Origin: Natronolimnobius sp. AArcel1
GTDB lineage: Archaea > Halobacteriota > Halobacteria > Halobacteriales > Natrialbaceae
DNA length: 64,000 nucleotides
Direction: 5' to 3'
Assembly: GCF_011043775.1 (NCBI RefSeq)
Contig: NZ_JAAKXY010000004.1
Span: 496,001 to 560,000 of the forward strand
Shown here one piece after another: positions 8,948-45,767 of this stretch. Under the pieces are notes generated by a model. It saw only the letters and a program-made list of their open reading frames with translations. It made no database searches and had not been told where the DNA came from. How positions within the stretch are numbered: the stretch's first letter is position 1; every line of letters starts with the position of its first letter. The position numbers and the translations under genes were made by a program.

Positions 8948-9961
8948 CTAACTGTCTGGAAGGTATCGACGCCGTTGGCGCATTTTATCGACGCTTGACC
9001 TCTGGTCATAGTGCAGATCGATGACGTCAGGACTTACGTCCATGCGCGAGCTGACCACGGGCTCGGGTGTATCTTTTCGCAGATGGTACGTGATCGCCCC
9101 CCGTCGAATCGGATGTGGACTGAGAACTGATGGACAGGCATGAACATTTGAGGTAGGAATCGCTTCACAATCGTCGATATCACGATCATGAGGACATGTG
9201 TCGCTATAGACACACGGGCGAGTGTACTGGTACGCGATTGTTCGACCACGGTTACGACTCAATCGGTTCTGTCGAGTGACGAACAACGGCTCACGGCCAT
9301 GCTCGTCTACAAGGCCATTGTGGTTGACTTCCAGCCAGTCATCTAACACCGTGCAAACGTGATCTTGCAGTGCAATCACGCGCTCACTCCCTTTTCCGTT
9401 CTTCAGTGAAGTCCCCTGCTCTGGACGATGTTTGAGGATCAAATATTGCTCCTCTGAATTGTAATCGTCCGCATCAAGACCGACAGCAGCTCCTATTCGA
9501 ATACCAGTATGCCAGAGCACAGTCAAAAGTGCGTGTTCCAGCGTGGCGTACCGGAATTGTTCGAGGTGATCAAAGATGGCATCTGCGCGTTCTGGATCCA
9601 GCATTTCGACACGTGCATCTTCTTCGGTCAGAGTCGGGAGAATGATTTTCTCATCGAGTCCTGGTTTGACGCCATCGATGCTGGCTAAGAAGCGCAGGAA
9701 CGTTTTAAGGGTAGCGAGCTGACCTTTCATCGTCGCGGTAGCCAGCCCGTCCTCTTCTCGACGTTTCACCCTGTATCGATGGATATCTCGTCCCGAGAAG
9801 TCGTTGAGATTTTCGATGTCTTCCTCCTCACACCATAGGACGAATTGCTTCAGCCGGTACCGATGAGATTGGATGGTGGAGTCGGCAAGCTCGTGGCTCC
9901 GCGCGTCGAGGTACATTTGCTTCGCTGTGCGTGGATCGATTGGTTCGAGGTCGTCCGTCAT
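8948..9961 (-). CDS. Tyrosine recombinase / integrase of the left-hand island
   Basis: This 337-residue site-specific recombinase has an N-terminal SAM-like DNA-binding domain (residues about 10-100) and a catalytic domain. Catalytic residues are visible: Arg in WHTGIRIGAAVGL, the His-x-x-Arg box in SPHPIRRGAITYH, and the nucleophile Tyr in DLHYDQ. A Cys/His-rich insertion (CPHDRDIDDC) before the His box is common in haloarchaeal phage-type integrases. I chose the ATG at 9961 because upstream codons run into tRNA-derived repeat sequence. The gene abuts the tRNA-tail element at 10067-10211, the expected place for an attachment site. It probably mobilises the island to its left, which carries the nuclease genes. 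Confidence 0.9.
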   Translation of the reverse strand: MTDDLEPIDPRTAKQMYLDARSHELADSTIQSHRYRLKQFVLWCEEEDIENLNDFSGRDIHRYRVKRREEDGLATATMKGQLATLKTFLRFLASIDGVKPGLDEKIILPTLTEEDARVEMLDPERADAIFDHLEQFRYATLEHALLTVLWHTGIRIGAAVGLDADDYNSEEQYLILKHRPEQGTSLKNGKGSERVIALQDHVCTVLDDWLEVNHNGLVDEHGREPLFVTRQNRLSRNRGRTIAYQYTRPCVYSDTCPHDRDIDDCEAIPTSNVHACPSVLSPHPIRRGAITYHLRKDTPEPVVSSRMDVSPDVIDLHYDQRSSVDKMRQRRRYLPDS

Positions 9962-10066
9962 GGTTGATTGCTCCGAAGGCGATAAGCGAGCGTTTCTAAC
10001 CGGCCGTTCTGACGGCTGTATCCTGGTATAACGGATGGCTGGCGCTCCAGTGGATTCTGGACGAGC

Positions 10067-10211
10067 CCCGCCCGAGCCCATATTTCTGCCGCGAACAACT
10101 CGTGAGCGGCAGAAATCTGTCGCGAGCGGCGGGTTCGAACCAGACCAGTCGCAGCGGGCGAACGAAATGAGCCCGACCGTCTGGGCGAGGTTCGAACCCG
10201 CCCGAGCCCAC
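10067..10211 (+). repeat. Orphan tRNA-tail element beside the integrase (candidate attachment site)
   Basis: CCCGCCCGAGCCCA occurs at 10067-10080 and again at 10197-10210, 130 bases apart; both look like a tRNA acceptor end. Between them are two hairpins. Hairpin A has a perfect 10-bp stem (10083-10092 with 10106-10115) and the loop GAACAACTCGTGA. Hairpin B has a perfect 14-bp stem (10128-10141 with 10189-10202) whose 3' arm GGTTCGAACCCGCC leads straight into the second acceptor-like end. The layout matches the elements behind the three intact tRNA genes, but no complete tRNA is present here. This suggests the 5' tRNA part was displaced by integration of the element to the left. Confidence 0.7.
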
Positions 10212-10541: not shown

Positions 10542-10988
10542 TCAGTGCTTGAGTCGGGCAACGTTCTCACGGATAGAGCTGAAGAAGCCGTCGTCGGCGT
10601 CAGCCTGTAAGGCGGCATGAAGCGTCGAGTTCTCCGGTTCGTCCTTGATGACGATTCGGAGATATGGCTCGAGTTGTTCGAACGCATCCGCGAGAACGAC
10701 GGTGTGGTTGTCCTCGTCGTGGTCGACAACGCCTGCGTCGGCCAATTTCGGGACGTGGCATTGCACGGATGAGACGTAGACACTCTTGTATTCGTTTTTC
10801 TCGACCTCGTCCGGATGCACGTTGTGTTCCCAGCCGGCGACCTGTTCAGCGAGCGTAGAGAGCTCGATTGGGTCTTCGCGGCCACGAAGCGCGTAGAGGA
10901 GGTAGCGCCGCCGCCGATTGGCGAGCAACTCGAGGATTGTGTCTGCTGACAGTTCCTGATCTGTCTGACTCGAGGTAAGGGCTTCCAT
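10542..10988 (-). CDS. Winged-helix transcriptional regulator (DUF7344-like)
   Basis: The 148-residue protein has the haloarchaeal winged-helix signature LLANRRRRYLLYALR (residues about 20-35), followed by LSTLAEQVAGWE and a recognition helix region HVPKLADAGVVDHDED, ending in a helical C-terminal part. This family is numerous in haloarchaea and its targets are usually unknown. It is monocistronic, with the ATG at 10988 downstream of an AT-poor region. Intact and in chromosome-like codon use, it appears to lie just outside the mobile island and could regulate neighbours on either side; its target is not evident. Confidence 0.78.
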   Translation of the reverse strand: MEALTSSQTDQELSADTILELLANRRRRYLLYALRGREDPIELSTLAEQVAGWEHNVHPDEVEKNEYKSVYVSSVQCHVPKLADAGVVDHDEDNHTVVLADAFEQLEPYLRIVIKDEPENSTLHAALQADADDGFFSSIRENVARLKH

Positions 10989-11179
10989 AACATGGTGTTA
11001 CTTCCCGGAGCGGAAAAGGGTGTCTTGAATATCCGTAAATCCGACAAGCGCTTGCTCCCCTCGAGAAATCAGAGCGTATGGGAGAGTATCACGGAGTTAC
11101 GCAACGCGCGAATACGTGATGTGTCGTGATATCATGCCTCTAAGAGACAGGGTCGAACGGCAGGTTTGATTCGAAATCC

Positions 11180-11190
11180 TTTTTTATATG
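11180..11190 (+). promoter_or_regulatory. TATA box of tRNA-Phe
   Basis: TTTTTTATATG lies 21-31 bases before the mature 5' end of tRNA-Phe, the expected archaeal BRE/TATA spacing. Confidence 0.6.
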
Positions 11191-11210
11191 ATCAACCGAG
11201 GTTTGGGTAA

Positions 11211-11284
11211 GCCGCCTTAGCTCAGACTGGGAGAGCACTCGACTGAAGATCGAGCTGTCCCCGGTTCAAATCCGGGAGGCGGCA
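11211..11284 (+). tRNA. tRNA-Phe (GAA)
   Basis: A 74-base cloverleaf: acceptor GCCGCCT pairs with AGGCGGC, discriminator A at 11284; anticodon stem CTCGA/TCGAG encloses CTGAAGA, giving anticodon GAA; T-arm CCCGG-TTCAAAT-CCGGG. No intron and no encoded CCA. It is followed immediately by two perfect copies of a 111-base unit that repeats its 3' end. Confidence 0.97.
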
Positions 11285-11506
11285 TTTCTGCCGCGAACAA
11301 CTCGTGAGTGACAGTAATGAGATTCGAGCGGATTTGAATTAGAGAACACCGAGCAACAGCGAGGTGTTCGCGTGGTTCAAATCCGGGAGGCGGCATTTCT
11401 GCCGCGAACAACTCGTGAGTGACAGTAATGAGATTCGAGCGGATTTGAATTAGAGAACACCGAGCAACAGCGAGGTGTTCGCGTGGTTCAAATCCGGGAG
11501 GCGGCA
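11285..11506 (+). repeat. Two tandem 111-bp tRNA-Phe tail elements
   Basis: Units 11285-11395 and 11396-11506 are identical. Each begins with hairpin A (CTGCCGC 11288-11294, loop GAACAACTCGTGA, GTGACAG 11308-11314; imperfect stem). Hairpin B follows, with GGATTTGAA (11330-11338) pairing with TTCAAATCC (11376-11384) and an inner GAACACC/GGTGTTC stem. Each unit ends in an exact copy of the tRNA-Phe 3' end, GGTTCAAATCCGGGAGGCGGCA read across two segments. The 5' arm of hairpin B is therefore complementary to the T-arm of the tRNA itself. Function is unknown. Confidence 0.95.
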
Positions 11507-11702
11507 TGTTTCAAACCGGTGAGCGGAGCGAACCGGTGCAAAAACTGACGCCGGACGGATTCTGAAGGATTTGAACGAGAGAGCTTTGCTCTCTCGAACC
11601 ACGAGCAGGTTCTCGGGCGTAGTGCACAATCCGGGAGACACTATCACGCTTTTACGCGAGACCCACTCGAGAAGCGACCGTGCTCGACTGAAGAGCAAGT
11701 TG
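11507..11702 (+). repeat. Degenerate third tRNA-Phe tail and tRNA fragment
   Basis: After the last perfect unit there is an ACCGGT stem pair around 11515-11539, a GGATTTGAA arm near 11567, and a decayed tRNA end AATCCGGGAGA at 11628-11638. CTCGACTGAAGA, the anticodon-arm sequence of tRNA-Phe, recurs near 11684. This reads as an older, decayed copy of the same element. Confidence 0.6.
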
Positions 11703-11722
11703 TGAGTGGAGCGAGTGAGTAG

Positions 11723-12409
11723 TCAGAGCCTGCCGTGGGCGTCAACCTCCACAGCGACCTCGTTGCGCCGGAGGAACGGCAGTGACCAGGGAGCGTCGTA
11801 CCCCATAAAAAACGGTTTGCCGGCGAGGGGGACGCTGGCAGCCTCGAGCGTCTCTCGCAACTGGTTGGCTTCGCGAGCAACGCGGGAGTCCGTGGCCCGC
11901 CACGTGAACCGCCTGACGGCGAGTGTTCGTTCGGGAACGTTGACAACCGACAGAGCGTCGTTGGTGGGCCGTGGAGCTGAATCTGCATCGTATTCCGTAG
12001 GGAGGTAGAATGCCATTCGGACCTTGTCAGAGCCGCGGATGCGGCCGGTTTCAACGGGCGCGGTCATCGGAATCGTCCGCTCAGTTGGCTCGACCTCGAC
12101 GGGCGCAGTCATTTCGAGCGACGTTCCGGGGCCGTCTACTTCGACCGGGGCGGTCATCGAAAGGTCCTCCCCACCGTCGTTCGCACCGCTGAGATACCGA
12201 AACAACCGACGGAACGCCGCGTTCTCGGAGGGAGCGACCGTCTCGACGACGGCCTGCTCAGGGTAACGCCGGAGTTCGACGTCGTCGATGTGAGCGACGG
12301 CCGTGTACGGAACGGTGTCGGTCGTGGTTCGCTGATAGAGCGTCCAAGCGCCGGCAGCGGCCAGCGCGCCCCCGACCACGCCCCCGACGATAGCGGAGTT
12401 TCGGACCAT
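11723..12409 (-). CDS. SOUL-family heme-binding-like protein
   Basis: The 228-residue protein opens with a hydrophobic segment (residues 5-22, NSAIVGGVVGGALAAAGAW), probably a membrane anchor, and continues with a SOUL domain: IDDVELRRYPEQAVVETV, RYLSGAND, then MTAPVEV and further family features up to the C-terminal FFMGYDAPW. SOUL proteins bind heme or porphyrins in eukaryotes and some prokaryotes; the archaeal role is untested. Unusually, the MTAPVE motif occurs three times in about 45 residues (near 85, 101 and 117), which suggests an internal duplication. It reads towards the tRNA-Phe tail region and has no operon partner. Confidence 0.85.
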   Translation of the reverse strand: MVRNSAIVGGVVGGALAAAGAWTLYQRTTTDTVPYTAVAHIDDVELRRYPEQAVVETVAPSENAAFRRLFRYLSGANDGGEDLSMTAPVEVDGPGTSLEMTAPVEVEPTERTIPMTAPVETGRIRGSDKVRMAFYLPTEYDADSAPRPTNDALSVVNVPERTLAVRRFTWRATDSRVAREANQLRETLEAASVPLAGKPFFMGYDAPWSLPFLRRNEVAVEVDAHGRL

Positions 12410-12558
12410 ACGAATAGTTCGGCTGGAACAGCCATAGCTCTTTTTTCAGGATGACAGTCGAACTCGTCGTGAGTCGGTCGATTCGTCTGTCCGTAACACC
12501 CGCGTGTCGTGTGGAGACCTCGAGCAGATCACCACCCAAACAGGACGAAACCGAGCAG

Positions 12559-13308
12559 TTATTCCTCGATTTCGAACGTCGTAATGACGGCCTCGTTGTC
12601 AGGAGTATCGTACCAGGCGGTCACGGCATACTTGCCCGGCCCCTCGACCGTACAGGAGTCACCGACCGCCTCGAGTGAGCCGTCACAGACGTCGGCAGTG
12701 TCCGGGCCAGTAACGGCAAAGTCGTCTGCGCGGTTGATTGCAACGAGCATAACCGTCGCTGTCTGGGCGTCTGAATCGATATCGACATCGAGGGCGGCCT
12801 GTGGCGTTGTGGCTGTCGTGTCCTGCTCGCCCTCGAGAGCCCACAGTCGCCATGCCTGTTCGTGTTGTCGAAGGGTAAGTTCGAGCGGAGTCTCCGCTGC
12901 GTGGTCACCGGTCGAGTCGTCTGTGACCGTCCAGACAGCCTCGAGAACGACTTCCTCGTCATCCTCCTCGAGAACATCCAGTTCGTGTGCGTCGATGCTG
13001 CCCGCCTTGATCGCGTCGCGGTCGAGGTCCTCGGCGATGGGTCCGTCCGGGTGTAACTGATCGCGTGCTGTGTCCACGTCGTCGTTCGCCACGGCGGTTA
13101 CAAACGCGTTGACGACTGCTGTCGGTGAGCCGGACTCACTCGAGTCTGTTGAGTCGTCTTCCCGTTCGGTGCTCGAGTCGCCATCGCTCGAGTTAGCTGC
13201 CTTGGTATCGTCAGTCGTGTCGGCAGGTTCGTCTGCCTGAGACTCGAGACAGCCGGCGAACGTGAGGGTGGCGGTGCCAGCCAGAGCCAGGAGGGTACGT
13301 CGCTTCAT
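12559..13308 (-). CDS. Secreted lipoprotein of unknown function
   Basis: The 249-residue product starts with MKRRTLLALAGTATLTFAGC, a lipoprotein signal with twin-arginine-like residues and a lipobox Cys at residue 20. A long Asp/Glu/Ser/Thr linker (residues about 25-65) follows, then a NTF2-like folded region beginning AVVNAFVTAVANDDVDTA. The C-terminal half is beta-rich with two Cys in the segment TADVCDGS...SCTVEG. I preferred the ATG at 13308 over 13320 because it starts the signal directly. It is expected outside the cell, anchored in the membrane. The ligand or partner is unknown. Confidence 0.75.
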   Translation of the reverse strand: MKRRTLLALAGTATLTFAGCLESQADEPADTTDDTKAANSSDGDSSTEREDDSTDSSESGSPTAVVNAFVTAVANDDVDTARDQLHPDGPIAEDLDRDAIKAGSIDAHELDVLEEDDEEVVLEAVWTVTDDSTGDHAAETPLELTLRQHEQAWRLWALEGEQDTTATTPQAALDVDIDSDAQTATVMLVAINRADDFAVTGPDTADVCDGSLEAVGDSCTVEGPGKYAVTAWYDTPDNEAVITTFEIEE

Positions 13309-13518
13309 ACTGACAGTCACAAATCACAAGTAGTGATTGTTTCGTTATTGTTGGTCTCGTAGACAACGGTGAGCGGTCAGATTCAGCGTAAGCGTGAGTC
13401 GACAGCGGGGGTCGGAACTGACACAGCGGGACAAGTATGGGAGGTGTGCTGAGAACCAACGGTGCAAACAAACGGTTAACAGCTATCCGACTGCCGTCCA
13501 TAGGTCTCCGTGTTCACA

Positions 13519-14367
13519 ATGGAAAACGAGAGTGACACGTTCGAGATCGGCGGAACGACGATTCATCGACTGGGCTTTGGTGCAATGCGTCTTTGTGGCG
13601 AGGAGATTATCGGCCCACCGGACGACGAGGACGCCGCACACGCTGTGCTCGAGCAGGCGGTCGAGTCCGGAATTGACTTCATTGATACCGCGGATTCGTA
13701 CGGCCCGGGAGTGAGCGAGCGACTCATCGGAGAAACACTGGGCGACCGAGATGATGTGCTGGTCGCGACGAAAGCAGGGTTACTCCGCAATCGCGGGGGC
13801 GAGTGGCTGGCTCACGGCGATCCGGACTACATCAGAAATCAAGTGCTGGCCTCGCTCGACCGGCTCCGAACCGACACCATTGACCTGTACCAGTTCCACC
13901 GGCCCGATGACGACGTCCCCTACGAGGACTCTATCCAGACGTTCGCCGAACTCCAGGATGACGGCCTCGTCGATCAGGTTGGCGTTAGCAACGTCTCCGT
14001 CGAGCAACTGGAGACCGCGCGCGACCACGTCGATGTCGCGACGGTCCAGAACCGATACAACATCGGCGATCGCTCGAGTGCGGACGTCCTCGAGGTCTGT
14101 GAGGAACACGACATCGGCTTCATCCCGTGGGCGCCGATCAACGGCGACGACCTCGACGAACACGGTGAGACGCTCGACGAGATTGCGGACACCCACGATG
14201 CGACGCGCCGGCAGGTCGGCCTTGCCTGGCTGCTTGCTCACTCAGATGTCGTCCTGCCGATTCCGGGCACCTCCGACCCGGACCATCTCGAGTCGAACAT
14301 CGCCGCCTCACAGCTCTCGCTCTCGGCTGATGAGGTCCAGCGAGTGACCGACCTCGAGTCCGAGTAG
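13519..14367 (+). CDS. Aldo/keto reductase
   Basis: A 282-residue (beta/alpha)8 oxidoreductase. Family marks are LGFGAMRLCG near residue 20, DTADSYGPGVSERLIGE (catalytic Asp and Tyr) near 58, VATKAG (catalytic Lys) near 85, YQFHRPD near 125, VGVSN near 160 and LPIPGTSDPDHLESN near 255 for NADPH binding. A GTG at 13510 could add three residues; the ATG at 13519 is the simpler choice. It converges with the metalloprotease-like gene, 11 bases between stops. It probably reduces small aldehydes or ketones with NADPH; the substrate is not predictable. Confidence 0.88.
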   Translation: MENESDTFEIGGTTIHRLGFGAMRLCGEEIIGPPDDEDAAHAVLEQAVESGIDFIDTADSYGPGVSERLIGETLGDRDDVLVATKAGLLRNRGGEWLAHGDPDYIRNQVLASLDRLRTDTIDLYQFHRPDDDVPYEDSIQTFAELQDDGLVDQVGVSNVSVEQLETARDHVDVATVQNRYNIGDRSSADVLEVCEEHDIGFIPWAPINGDDLDEHGETLDEIADTHDATRRQVGLAWLLAHSDVVLPIPGTSDPDHLESNIAASQLSLSADEVQRVTDLESE

Positions 14368-14378
14368 CGCGTACCCTG

Positions 14379-15236
14379 TTACTCGAGGCTGCGCAGGAGG
14401 TATTCGCGTACAAGACAGGGCCGAAGGGCGAAATCGTAGCCGGTCGTATCCCGAACGTTTGCGAGATTCGCTCGCAGGCGTTCCCATTCAGCATCCAATA
14501 GGTCGAGTTCATCGCCGGTCCCCATGACACCCGTATTTTCAGGATCGGTATCGTGTGGGAGCACGAGATGTGTGAGTTCGTGGAGAACGAGGCGTGCCTC
14601 TTCAAATCGATCGTGGCGGTTGGCGACGACGGCTCGGTTTCCAGCACTGAACCCGTTAACGTAGCCATCGATCCCAACGCCCAGTCGATCGAGCCAACGG
14701 CTATAGACTCGTTTGCGTTGGTCTGGGTCGACACTTGTGCCGGGAACGACGAACAACTGCAGCGCCGTATTTTTGAGGAACTCCTCGATTTCGTTGCTGT
14801 ACACGCTTCCAGATCGAAGCAACATGTCCTCGACTGACCGGCCATACGTCTCCGCGAGCACTCTCCGATTGTATCGCTGTGGATAATCGAGCCACTGGGC
14901 GTGAATGCCATGTTCGCGGAACCGGTCCACGACCAACTGCTTCGTCGTGGGGAATATCCGTGTAGCGCCAATGTACCGAACATCGATCAGCAATTCGGGC
15001 CGCCCAACCTCGAGCGACTCTACCTGTCCAGGTCCGTAGATCGACTCGAGTTGCTGGTGGAACGATGAGGACCGCTTTTTCCGGGTTGGTATTCCGTCGC
15101 CGTCGTCACCCATCCAGTCGGTCACTGAACCGCTGACGGAACCGATTATAGAAACGCTGCTGACGGCACCAACCGAACTGAGAAGCGCTCGACGAGATGA
15201 TTGGGGATCTGATTCACTGTGACAACGGTTCCCCAT
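14379..15236 (-). CDS. Tat-exported putative zinc metalloprotease
   Basis: The 285-residue protein has an N-terminal SSRRALLSSVGAV segment typical of a twin-arginine signal. The mature part carries VLHELTHLVLPHDTDPEN near residue 220, giving His-Glu-x-x-His plus a further His-Asp, then GVMG about 8 residues later, which resembles the Met-turn of metzincins. The spacing from the second to the third His is one residue shorter than the usual HExxHxxGxxH. A secreted zinc peptidase is likely, but the family is not certain. Two motifs earlier (SVEDMLLRSG, DPDQRKRVY) are unassigned. It is monocistronic, converging with the reductase. Confidence 0.62.
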   Translation of the reverse strand: MGNRCHSESDPQSSRRALLSSVGAVSSVSIIGSVSGSVTDWMGDDGDGIPTRKKRSSSFHQQLESIYGPGQVESLEVGRPELLIDVRYIGATRIFPTTKQLVVDRFREHGIHAQWLDYPQRYNRRVLAETYGRSVEDMLLRSGSVYSNEIEEFLKNTALQLFVVPGTSVDPDQRKRVYSRWLDRLGVGIDGYVNGFSAGNRAVVANRHDRFEEARLVLHELTHLVLPHDTDPENTGVMGTGDELDLLDAEWERLRANLANVRDTTGYDFALRPCLVREYLLRSLE

Positions 15237-15369
15237 CTCACCCGGACAGTGTGGGGATACTGAGTTAATAATTCGTCTGAACGATTTCGTGCTTTATGTC
15301 TCGCTGTATCGACTCGAGATTGGATGACGTCTCTGGGTGAGTTTGTTACTCAACAGTTGCTGTGAAACT

Positions 15370-15479
15370 GTCCGGGTGCGAGAATCGAACCACGGTCGTT
15401 CCGCTCGCGTTGCTCGCGTCACTCTCTGGTTCGATTCTCTGACGATTCCTTCGGCTCACGGATTTGTTCGCCGAAGGAA
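15370..15479 (-). repeat. tRNA-His tail element (110 bp)
   Basis: Directly behind tRNA-His on the minus strand. Hairpin A has a perfect 10-bp stem (15446-15455 with 15470-15479), its loop reading GAACAAATCCGTGA on the minus strand. Hairpin B has a perfect 13-bp stem (15380-15392 with 15427-15439). The unit ends in a 20-base copy of the tRNA-His 3' end at 15371-15390, exactly 110 bases from the original. The architecture equals that behind tRNA-Phe though the stem sequences differ. Confidence 0.9.
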
Positions 15480-15552
15480 GTCCGGGTGCGAGAATCGAAC
15501 CCGCGTCTCAGCCTCCACAAGGCTGAAGGATAACCACTACCCCAACCCGGAC
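15480..15552 (-). tRNA. tRNA-His (GTG)
   Basis: On the minus strand the acceptor TCCGGGT pairs with ACCCGGA. An encoded G-1 (complement of 15552) faces C73 (complement of 15480), the identity mark of tRNA-His. Anticodon stem CAGCC/GGCTG encloses TTGTGGA, anticodon GTG. A TATA-like TATTTTAGG lies about 30-38 bases upstream (complement of 15582-15590). Confidence 0.96.
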
Positions 15553-15713
15553 ACGCTTACGTGCTTATGTAGGTCCGGTCAACCTAAAATACGTTACGAC
15601 TCGAGGACGCCTCGCGTGTCTCACTGTCGCATACGACTCGAGCGCGTCGATCCGCCATCCGGAGTGTCGACCGGGACGTTTTTCGCCAACACGCTCGTAG
15701 GGACCACCAACGC

Positions 15714-45413: not shown

Positions 45414-45487
<74 letters not shown>

Positions 45488-45615
45488 CTTTTGCGACGAA
45501 CACACGTGAGGAGTAAAGCGGCCACCGCGATTTGAACTAGACGAGTCGCAGCCCGTGAGCGAGCGCAGCGAGCGAACTGGAACGTCTCTGCGTAGTTCAT
45601 AATCGCGCCCGGCCC
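45488..45615 (+). repeat. tRNA-Lys tail element
   Basis: Downstream of tRNA-Lys: hairpin A with a weak stem (GCTTT 45487-45491 with AAAGC 45515-45519) and loop core GAACACACGTGA (45498-45509); hairpin B with CGCGATTTGAACTA (45526-45539) pairing, with one bulge, to TAGTTCATAATCGCG (45593-45607). The unit ends with AATCGCGCCCGGCCC, a copy of the tRNA-Lys 3' end, 129 bases after the original. It has the same plan as the Phe and His tails but is more diverged. Confidence 0.85.
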
Positions 45616-45767
45616 ACCTTAGCACCGAATAGGTCTGCAAGAACCACTGCCGCCAGAACCATTGGTGCCGCTCGCTACGGTCTCACTCGAGCACACCGAT
45701 ATTTCACCATCTCTCGAGCAAAAAATTCAATAGAGCGTGCTGGTGATCTTACGAAGTGATTGCGTAA

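Follow-up and report, generated by a model that had tools for sequence, protein, structure and literature searches.

The window analysed here, a 64,000-nucleotide stretch of the Natronolimnobius sp. AArcel1 genome (contig NZ_JAAKXY010000004.1, positions 496,001 to 560,000), carries short two-hairpin units directly behind its tRNA-Phe, tRNA-His, and tRNA-Lys genes, each unit ending in a copy of the 3' end of its own tRNA. Such units look like a haloarchaea-specific, class-wide family of short non-coding elements behind tRNA genes, and the family appears to be undescribed in the libraries and papers searched. We consider it about an even chance that the units are short non-coding cassettes accumulating directly behind haloarchaeal tRNA genes by recombination at T-arm/3'-end sequence. 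This reading is supported by the placement and structure of the units, their match to the host tRNA, whole-unit differences between genomes, the tRNA-proximal position of most additional units, and modular exchange. A large share of the tRNA genes in many haloarchaea is trailed by this structured element, which was absent from the searched libraries and papers and which will confuse the annotation of tRNAs, attachment (att) sites, and genomic islands until it is recognised.

Units in the window and their occurrence in haloarchaea

The initial annotation had reported two identical 111-base units directly behind tRNA-Phe, and this description was exact: positions 11263-11373 and 11374-11484 share 100% identity across 111 bp, and the 23-nt tRNA-Phe end GGTTCAAATCCGGGAGGCGGCAT occurs three times with a spacing of 111 bp. 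Each unit opens with hairpin A, continues through the antisense arm GGATTTGAA and the hairpin-B loop, and closes with a 22-nt stretch copied from the 3' end of the tRNA. The division into hairpin A and a hairpin B bearing the tRNA-end copy stands, with the correction that hairpin A in these two units is a decayed form of the family stem (TTTCTGCCGC vs. GTGACAGTAA). The fold of the 133-nt tRNA-Phe unit stretch reached -50.4 kcal/mol (z = -3.4 vs. shuffles). A recent tandem duplication, as originally proposed, is the best reading of the perfect pair, because A-B-A-B arrays are also found elsewhere (G281). The third, decayed unit has a different hairpin A, of the type that opens unit 1 behind tRNA-Phe in genome G064 (L223), which indicates that the array was assembled from differing units. 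The units claimed at tRNA-His and tRNA-Lys are both present; the tRNA-end copy of the latter is imperfect (AGTTCATAATCGCG, one-base insertion). The coordinates are listed in Table 1.

Table 1. Coordinates of the tRNA-associated units and their parts in the window.
Feature	Position	Strand	Basis or remarks
tRNA-Phe(GAA), intact	11211..11284	+	ARAGORN; Rfam RF00005, 65.5 bits
Core copied downstream (last 22 nt of tRNA-Phe)	11263-11284	+	part of tRNA-Phe(GAA)
tRNA-Phe unit 1, 111 bp	11285..11395	+	sequence, repeat search, fold
Unit 1, hairpin A	11285-11329	+	tip GAACAACTCGTGA; stem partly decayed
Unit 1, antisense T-arm	11330-11338	+	GGATTTGAA
Unit 1, hairpin-B loop	11339-11373	+	
Unit 1, copy of tRNA-Phe 3' end	11374-11395	+	
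tRNA-Phe unit 2	11396..11506	+	same sequence as unit 1; sequence, repeat search
Unit 2, hairpin A	11396-11440	+	
Unit 2, antisense arm	11441-11449	+	
Unit 2, hairpin-B loop	11450-11484	+	
Unit 2, tRNA-end copy	11485-11506	+	
Third, decayed tRNA-Phe unit	11507..11641	+	hairpin A of other type ACCGGTGAGCGGAGCGAACCGGT, arm GGATTTGAACGAGAG, decayed copy CACAATCCGGGAG; sequence, repeat search
Remnant of older, longer copy of the tRNA-Phe 3' half (anticodon region)	11683..11703	+	86% identity to 11238-11258; repeat search
Unit behind tRNA-His (tRNA 15552-15480)	15370..15479	-	hairpin A TTCCTTCGGC/GCCGAAGGAA, host-matched arm GAGAATCGAACC, hairpin-B loop, exact copy GGTTCGATTCTCGCACCCGGAC
Unit behind tRNA-Lys(TTT) (tRNA 45414-45487)	45488..45616	+	hairpin A tip CGAACACACGTGAG, arm CGCGATTTGAAC, hairpin-B loop, imperfect copy AGTTCATAATCGCGCCCGGCCC

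Copies of the tRNAs' own 3' ends were counted for the full set of 43 in the source genome. A downstream copy was found for 30 of them, compared with 1/43 in the upstream control and 0/43 with a reversed core. Swapped cores still gave 13% matches, since T-arms are common to tRNAs and the units themselves are present. These three controls rule out a chance origin of the copies. The earlier view that the elements form a family is supported. The pattern is also present in relatives: tRNA-end copies stand behind 26 of the 41 tRNAs of the same-genus genome G062, and a unit was found at 53 of the 70 tRNA-Phe loci fetched from the same family, a few of which overlap. Among the tRNAs sampled from three genomes of other families, copies were present at 6/30, 11/31, and 10/30 against upstream controls of 3, 0, and 2, which leaves a true excess of about 3 to 11. 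The strict pattern was matched by 112 of 292 haloarchaeal genomes, spread over 50 of 77 genera, with no match for the reversed control, and a looser hairpin-B pattern was detected in 7/7 haloarchaeal genomes sampled vs. 0/53 other genomes of the phylum. In a collection scan with the hairpin-B pattern, all of the matches listed (at least 80) lay in haloarchaeal records, one of which is titled only 'Euryarchaeota archaeon', and nearly all followed a tRNA at a distance of 30-410 bp, either on its strand or on the opposite one, with no element body between. The median unit length was 129 bp, and the interiors of the analysed units (60-190 bp) were gene-free. Units are lacking at about a third of the source-genome tRNAs and at most tRNAs of some other haloarchaeal genomes.

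With the Rfam 15 covariance models, positions 10900-15700 of the window gave matches to tRNA models alone, together with a sub-threshold match on the antisense strand of a tRNA. The phage and plasmid records in the searched sets held no unit carriers, their matches being tRNA genes only. A scan of IMG/VR returned 14 matches, none of which was a haloarchaeal unit (five were prophage-type palindromes and the rest resembled coding sequence), and a virus origin of the units was rejected on this basis. No description of such units was found in the open full-text papers searched, a coverage of the literature that is incomplete mainly for subscription papers.

The displaced 22-nt copies are 0.86-1.00 identical to the host at tRNA positions 53-73. 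Their agreement with the host tRNA exceeds the background at positions 57 and 62-70 and hardly does so at position 52, so the copy starts near the T-loop. For the antisense arm, complementarity to its own tRNA stays above background as far as position 65 and hardly exceeds it at 66, where the T-stem ends. At tRNAs with a variant T-loop, the arm matched its own tRNA more closely than the consensus in 44 units and less closely in 8, with 10 ties; at ordinary tRNAs the consensus was preferred 224 to 9. Covariation of hairpin B with the host tRNA, a check suggested in the initial annotation, was thus positive. The T-stems of tRNA-Ala (L006 and the G062 tRNA-Ala loci) carry compensatory differences between the two same-genus genomes. 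The displaced Ala copies follow the tRNA version of their own genome, that is, tRNA and copies evolve in concert.

Turnover, modular exchange, and a proposed recombination model

Turnover was followed by comparing the source genome with G062 and by comparing the tRNA-Phe loci of the family. The source genome and G062 differ by exact whole units beginning at tRNA +1, directly after position 73. Behind Ala-ggc, 128 bp are present or absent, with the source sequence from position 129 onwards corresponding to G062 from position 1 onwards; behind Leu-caa the difference is 112 bp, and source position 113 corresponds to G062 position 1. Ala-cgc is the reverse case, with a whole unit present in G062 and absent in the source. 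One additional tRNA-proximal unit was found in G062 at both Lys-ttt and Asp, and two in the source genome at Ser-cga; Gly-gcc differs in a distal unit, and at Leu-taa the unit order is swapped. Among the tRNA-Phe loci, L224 corresponds to L210 with two further units exactly at the tRNA end (94%). One common older tRNA-Phe remnant lies directly at the tRNA, with no unit before it, in L231, L232, and L259; in L194, L218, L227, and L229 it is preceded by a single unit, which is not the same one throughout. An account by loss only would require an ancestor holding all of these units, and the occurrence of the same remnant with none or with differing single units before it makes repeated unit gains likely. 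Additional units are mostly tRNA-adjacent, and older ones lie further off, behind a displaced and slowly decaying tRNA-end copy. Of the roles entertained in the initial annotation, a mobile unit capturing tRNA ends fits these turnover data best; mobility itself we infer from them.

The two halves of a unit have different histories. Hairpin-A parts at least 85% alike were found in 107 of 2627 same-tRNA pairs vs. 17 of 34501 different-tRNA pairs, and many of these 17 between-species pairs involve sister isoacceptors or a neighbouring tRNA. The corresponding counts for hairpin-B parts were 145/2627 and 388/34501. Hairpin A descends with a given tRNA species, and hairpin-B loops are exchanged among tRNAs. 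In G062, an identical 100-nt hairpin-B part stands behind Lys-ctt and Lys-ttt with differing hairpins A, and the Ile unit is a chimera whose A and B parts sit in two separate units in the source genome. The module junctions lie in T-arm sequence.

A unit comprises hairpin A, the antisense T-arm, the hairpin-B loop, and a copy of tRNA positions about 53-73. In the recombination model, such a cassette would be gained through recombination at the T-arm/3' end of the tRNA, a sequence that would act as an attachment-like core; the tRNA would stay intact, and the former tRNA end would become the copy. The agent might be a T-arm-targeting tyrosine recombinase supplied in trans, perhaps acting on a folded single strand by analogy with integron attC, or the gain might result from homologous exchange among different cells at their tRNA genes, which are highly conserved. 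The arrays would then be reshaped by tandem duplication, deletion or loss, and gene conversion between the 22-bp cores, and the hairpins would be kept either as the recombining substrate or because a transcribed trailer must not disturb tRNA folding. If the units do move, they would constitute a mobile cassette of very small size that is targeted to specific tRNAs, and they would illustrate the way in which tRNA genes turn into hot spots for insertion. A bolder version can be put forward only tentatively: gene-free, host-tailored cassettes, class-wide and specific to haloarchaeal tRNA 3' ends, would recombine as folded single strands via an undescribed T-arm-directed system and form an integron-like array with the tRNA gene as the attachment site.

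Several observations weigh against recombination-driven gain. The analysis yielded no recombinase, no circular form, no free intermediate, and no unit in the searched phage and plasmid records, and a double-stranded circle of 111 bp would be unusual. Single presence/absence pairs are explicable as losses by deletion between 22-bp cores; deletion between such repeats has been proposed for haloarchaea (PMC3119063). The covarying arms and stems could partly reflect quasi-palindrome correction or gene conversion, and the displaced Ala cores show concerted evolution with the tRNA they belong to.

Hairpin structure and alternative explanations

Neither of the outcomes named in the initial annotation as refuting the family was seen, given that relatives have the pattern and that hairpin A is conserved. 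Hairpin A carries compensatory changes: in 20 distinct tRNA-Phe sequences, 7 of 12 pairs had two-sided changes, 96.7% of cells pair, and the covariation score was 0.415 vs. 0.211, with 0/500 shuffles as high. In hairpin B (20 sequences), two-sided changes affected 8 of 28 pairs, again with 0/500 shuffles as high. Related sequences may beat shuffles without any structure; slid controls were also far lower. Hairpin B has an attC-like fold with covarying arms, a similarity of architecture only. A tip form common to both hairpins, C-GA-xy-loop-yx-GA-G, was counted 262 times in sense vs. 4 times in antisense orientation (273 units), and GCGNAGC tips 192 vs. 15 times, at about 20 times the density in the window. 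This strand bias identifies the tRNA sense strand as the structured one, and the sense strand folds better than the antisense strand in 233 of 272 cases.

Covariation in both hairpins, the fixed sense-strand structure with its better fold, and the position of units at +1 behind the tRNA are also what a functional RNA trailer would predict. Units would then be co-transcribed with the tRNA, hairpins A and B would aid maturation of the 3' end, termination, or correct folding, the additional T-arm copy would be hidden by hairpin B, and the arrays would be a recombination by-product. The weak enrichment of runs of at least 4 T within 15 nt, seen at 20/56 unit starts vs. 4/28 tRNAs without units, points the same way, as does one mobile genetic element (G032) that carries a unit along with the tRNA end. 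On the other hand, the many tRNAs without units mean that an RNA role cannot be essential, and the copied acceptor strand has no obvious role in RNA. Mismatches, a count that bears on RNA vs. single-stranded DNA, first gave 194 G.T vs. 6 A.C, a figure raised artificially by two partners that are almost always G; within helices the ratios were a modest 104:59 and 12:9. In equilibrium folds, which bear on the alternative fold suggested in the initial annotation, the displaced 3' end is predicted to compete with the true tRNA 3' end, a result that leans on the multiloop parameters. Scrambling the arm altered the predicted tRNA fold slightly and inconsistently, with the same parameter sensitivity, and a shielding of tRNA folding by the arm was set aside for these reasons. 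The T5C terminator motif of haloarchaea is a run of five T followed by C (PMC7237163); measured against it, runs of at least 5 T within 15 nt were present at 3/56 unit starts. The termination or processing role raised in the initial annotation did not emerge from the weakly enriched T runs. Overall, a functional RNA trailer seems unlikely, and if the units do act as RNA they would be an unknown trailer of pre-tRNAs. Both this and the cassette reading are testable in Haloferax volcanii.

Passive repeat dynamics would need neither an element nor a function: slippage or unequal exchange of the tRNA end and its flank would produce the arrays, and quasi-palindrome correction and gene conversion the hairpins. 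The tandem A-B-A-B duplications (G281), the identical tRNA-Phe pair, and the concerted evolution of the Ala cores agree with such a process. It is nevertheless improbable given that neighbouring units in one array are usually unrelated in hairpin A and B sequence, that the class as a whole retains the plan, which is absent from the 53 other genomes of the phylum, and that the GCGNAGC tips are so strongly strand-biased and dense.

Least probable is that the units are scars of ordinary integrase elements, i.e., leftover att sites of proviruses or plasmids in tRNA genes: archaeal integrases do prefer to insert at tRNA 3' ends, which results in a duplicated 3' portion (PMC8371274), and integrase elements occur at the same tRNAs (L184 and L221), but the units are compact and structured with a constant plan, unlike deletion scars, nearly all listed hairpin-B matches lie close behind tRNAs with no element body between, and the tRNA-Phe integrase element L221 has a 33-bp att core and hairpin-free ends, on which an ordinary attP scar was rejected.

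Relation to known systems

The use of tRNA T-stem loops and 3' ends by archaeal integrases is established (PMC8371274). Like the tRNA-targeted tyrosine-integrase elements of the SNJ2, SSV1, and pNOB8 types, the units have the tRNA 3' end as the insertion point, a regenerated intact tRNA, a displaced 3'-end copy, and tandem accretion, and a core direct repeat (the 22-nt tRNA-end copy) stands at both ends. They differ in being gene-free, about 110-150 bp long, and composed of two structured hairpins with a host-matched antisense arm. The analysed units neither encode nor flank an integrase gene, the collection loci have units directly behind tRNAs, and the ends of the units differ from those of the L221 element (G301) at the same tRNA, which has neither hairpin A nor hairpin B. 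That element has pushed an older unit downstream. Partial tRNA duplications in Haloquadratum (22- and 43-bp tRNA-end duplications, tied to prophage integration and deletable) share the duplicated tRNA ends and the repeat-mediated deletion; the part of the report consulted describes no hairpin units, host-matched arm, or class-wide family (PMC3119063).

The resemblance to attC sites and cassette arrays of integrons goes no further than an architectural analogy, which covers paired outer arms, an unpaired spacer, a variable tip, a strand-specific fold, and one-end growth; in the units, by contrast, the outer arms are tRNA T-arm sequence and genes are lacking, apart from an ATPase gene in one array (L222). 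With repetitive extragenic palindromic sequences and bacterial interspersed mosaic elements (REP/BIME) and miniature inverted-repeat transposable elements (MITE), the units have in common that they are short, non-coding, palindromic, and multicopy, with a presumed movement in trans. Unlike these, they follow tRNA genes or displaced tRNA ends, are oriented like the tRNA, duplicate its end, and have arms that vary by host tRNA. Their boundaries are hairpin A at +1 and the end of the tRNA copy, and the arm/core inverted pair is internal, so terminal inverted repeats at the boundaries with a fixed short target duplication, as in MITE, are missing. Insertion of the clustered regularly interspaced short palindromic repeats (CRISPR)/casposon type at tRNA 3' ends likewise adds a new unit beside a fixed leader, with duplication of an approximately 22-bp repeat, but the segments inserted in the units are a conserved structured family and not arbitrary spacers or cas1 elements. 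The units are akin to small repeats and insertions that target the 3' ends of tRNAs, yet distinct from integrase att elements, MITE, and Rfam families, because the host-matched arm and gene-free two-hairpin plan do not fit the defining features tested for those groups.

Several loci near or resembling the units were also recorded. A tyrosine integrase gene (PF00589, with a SAM-like N-terminal domain) lies at 8948-10081 on the minus strand of the window, 1.1 kb upstream of tRNA-Phe and outside the unit, and may mark an old integration beside the array; no integrase adjoined the 3' side of the array, and no IntI gene or attI was found, although no search aimed at either was made. A 3-kb element at tRNA-Gly in G032 (L184, 1775-5000) encodes an integrase (PF00589) and a DUF7342 protein and has tRNA 3' sequence and a hairpin unit at both ends, which indicates that units can travel with integrase elements. 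In G207 (L222, 939-2339), a single archaeal ATPase gene (PF01637/DUF234) is located within the unit array behind tRNA-Phe in the manner of a gene cassette. Five prophage-type viral contigs, apparently bacterial (L054, L056, L057, L058, and L061), contain a lookalike, a near-perfect palindrome formed from an inverted tRNA T-arm (GGATTTGAACC...GGTTCAAATCC). The tandem-GA hairpin tip of the units (GTGAGCGGAGCGAAC) also occurs at 11512-11537 of the window and in other intergenic stretches, away from hairpins A and B of intact units, and tip-motif matches across the window numbered 26 on the plus strand and 12 on the minus strand.
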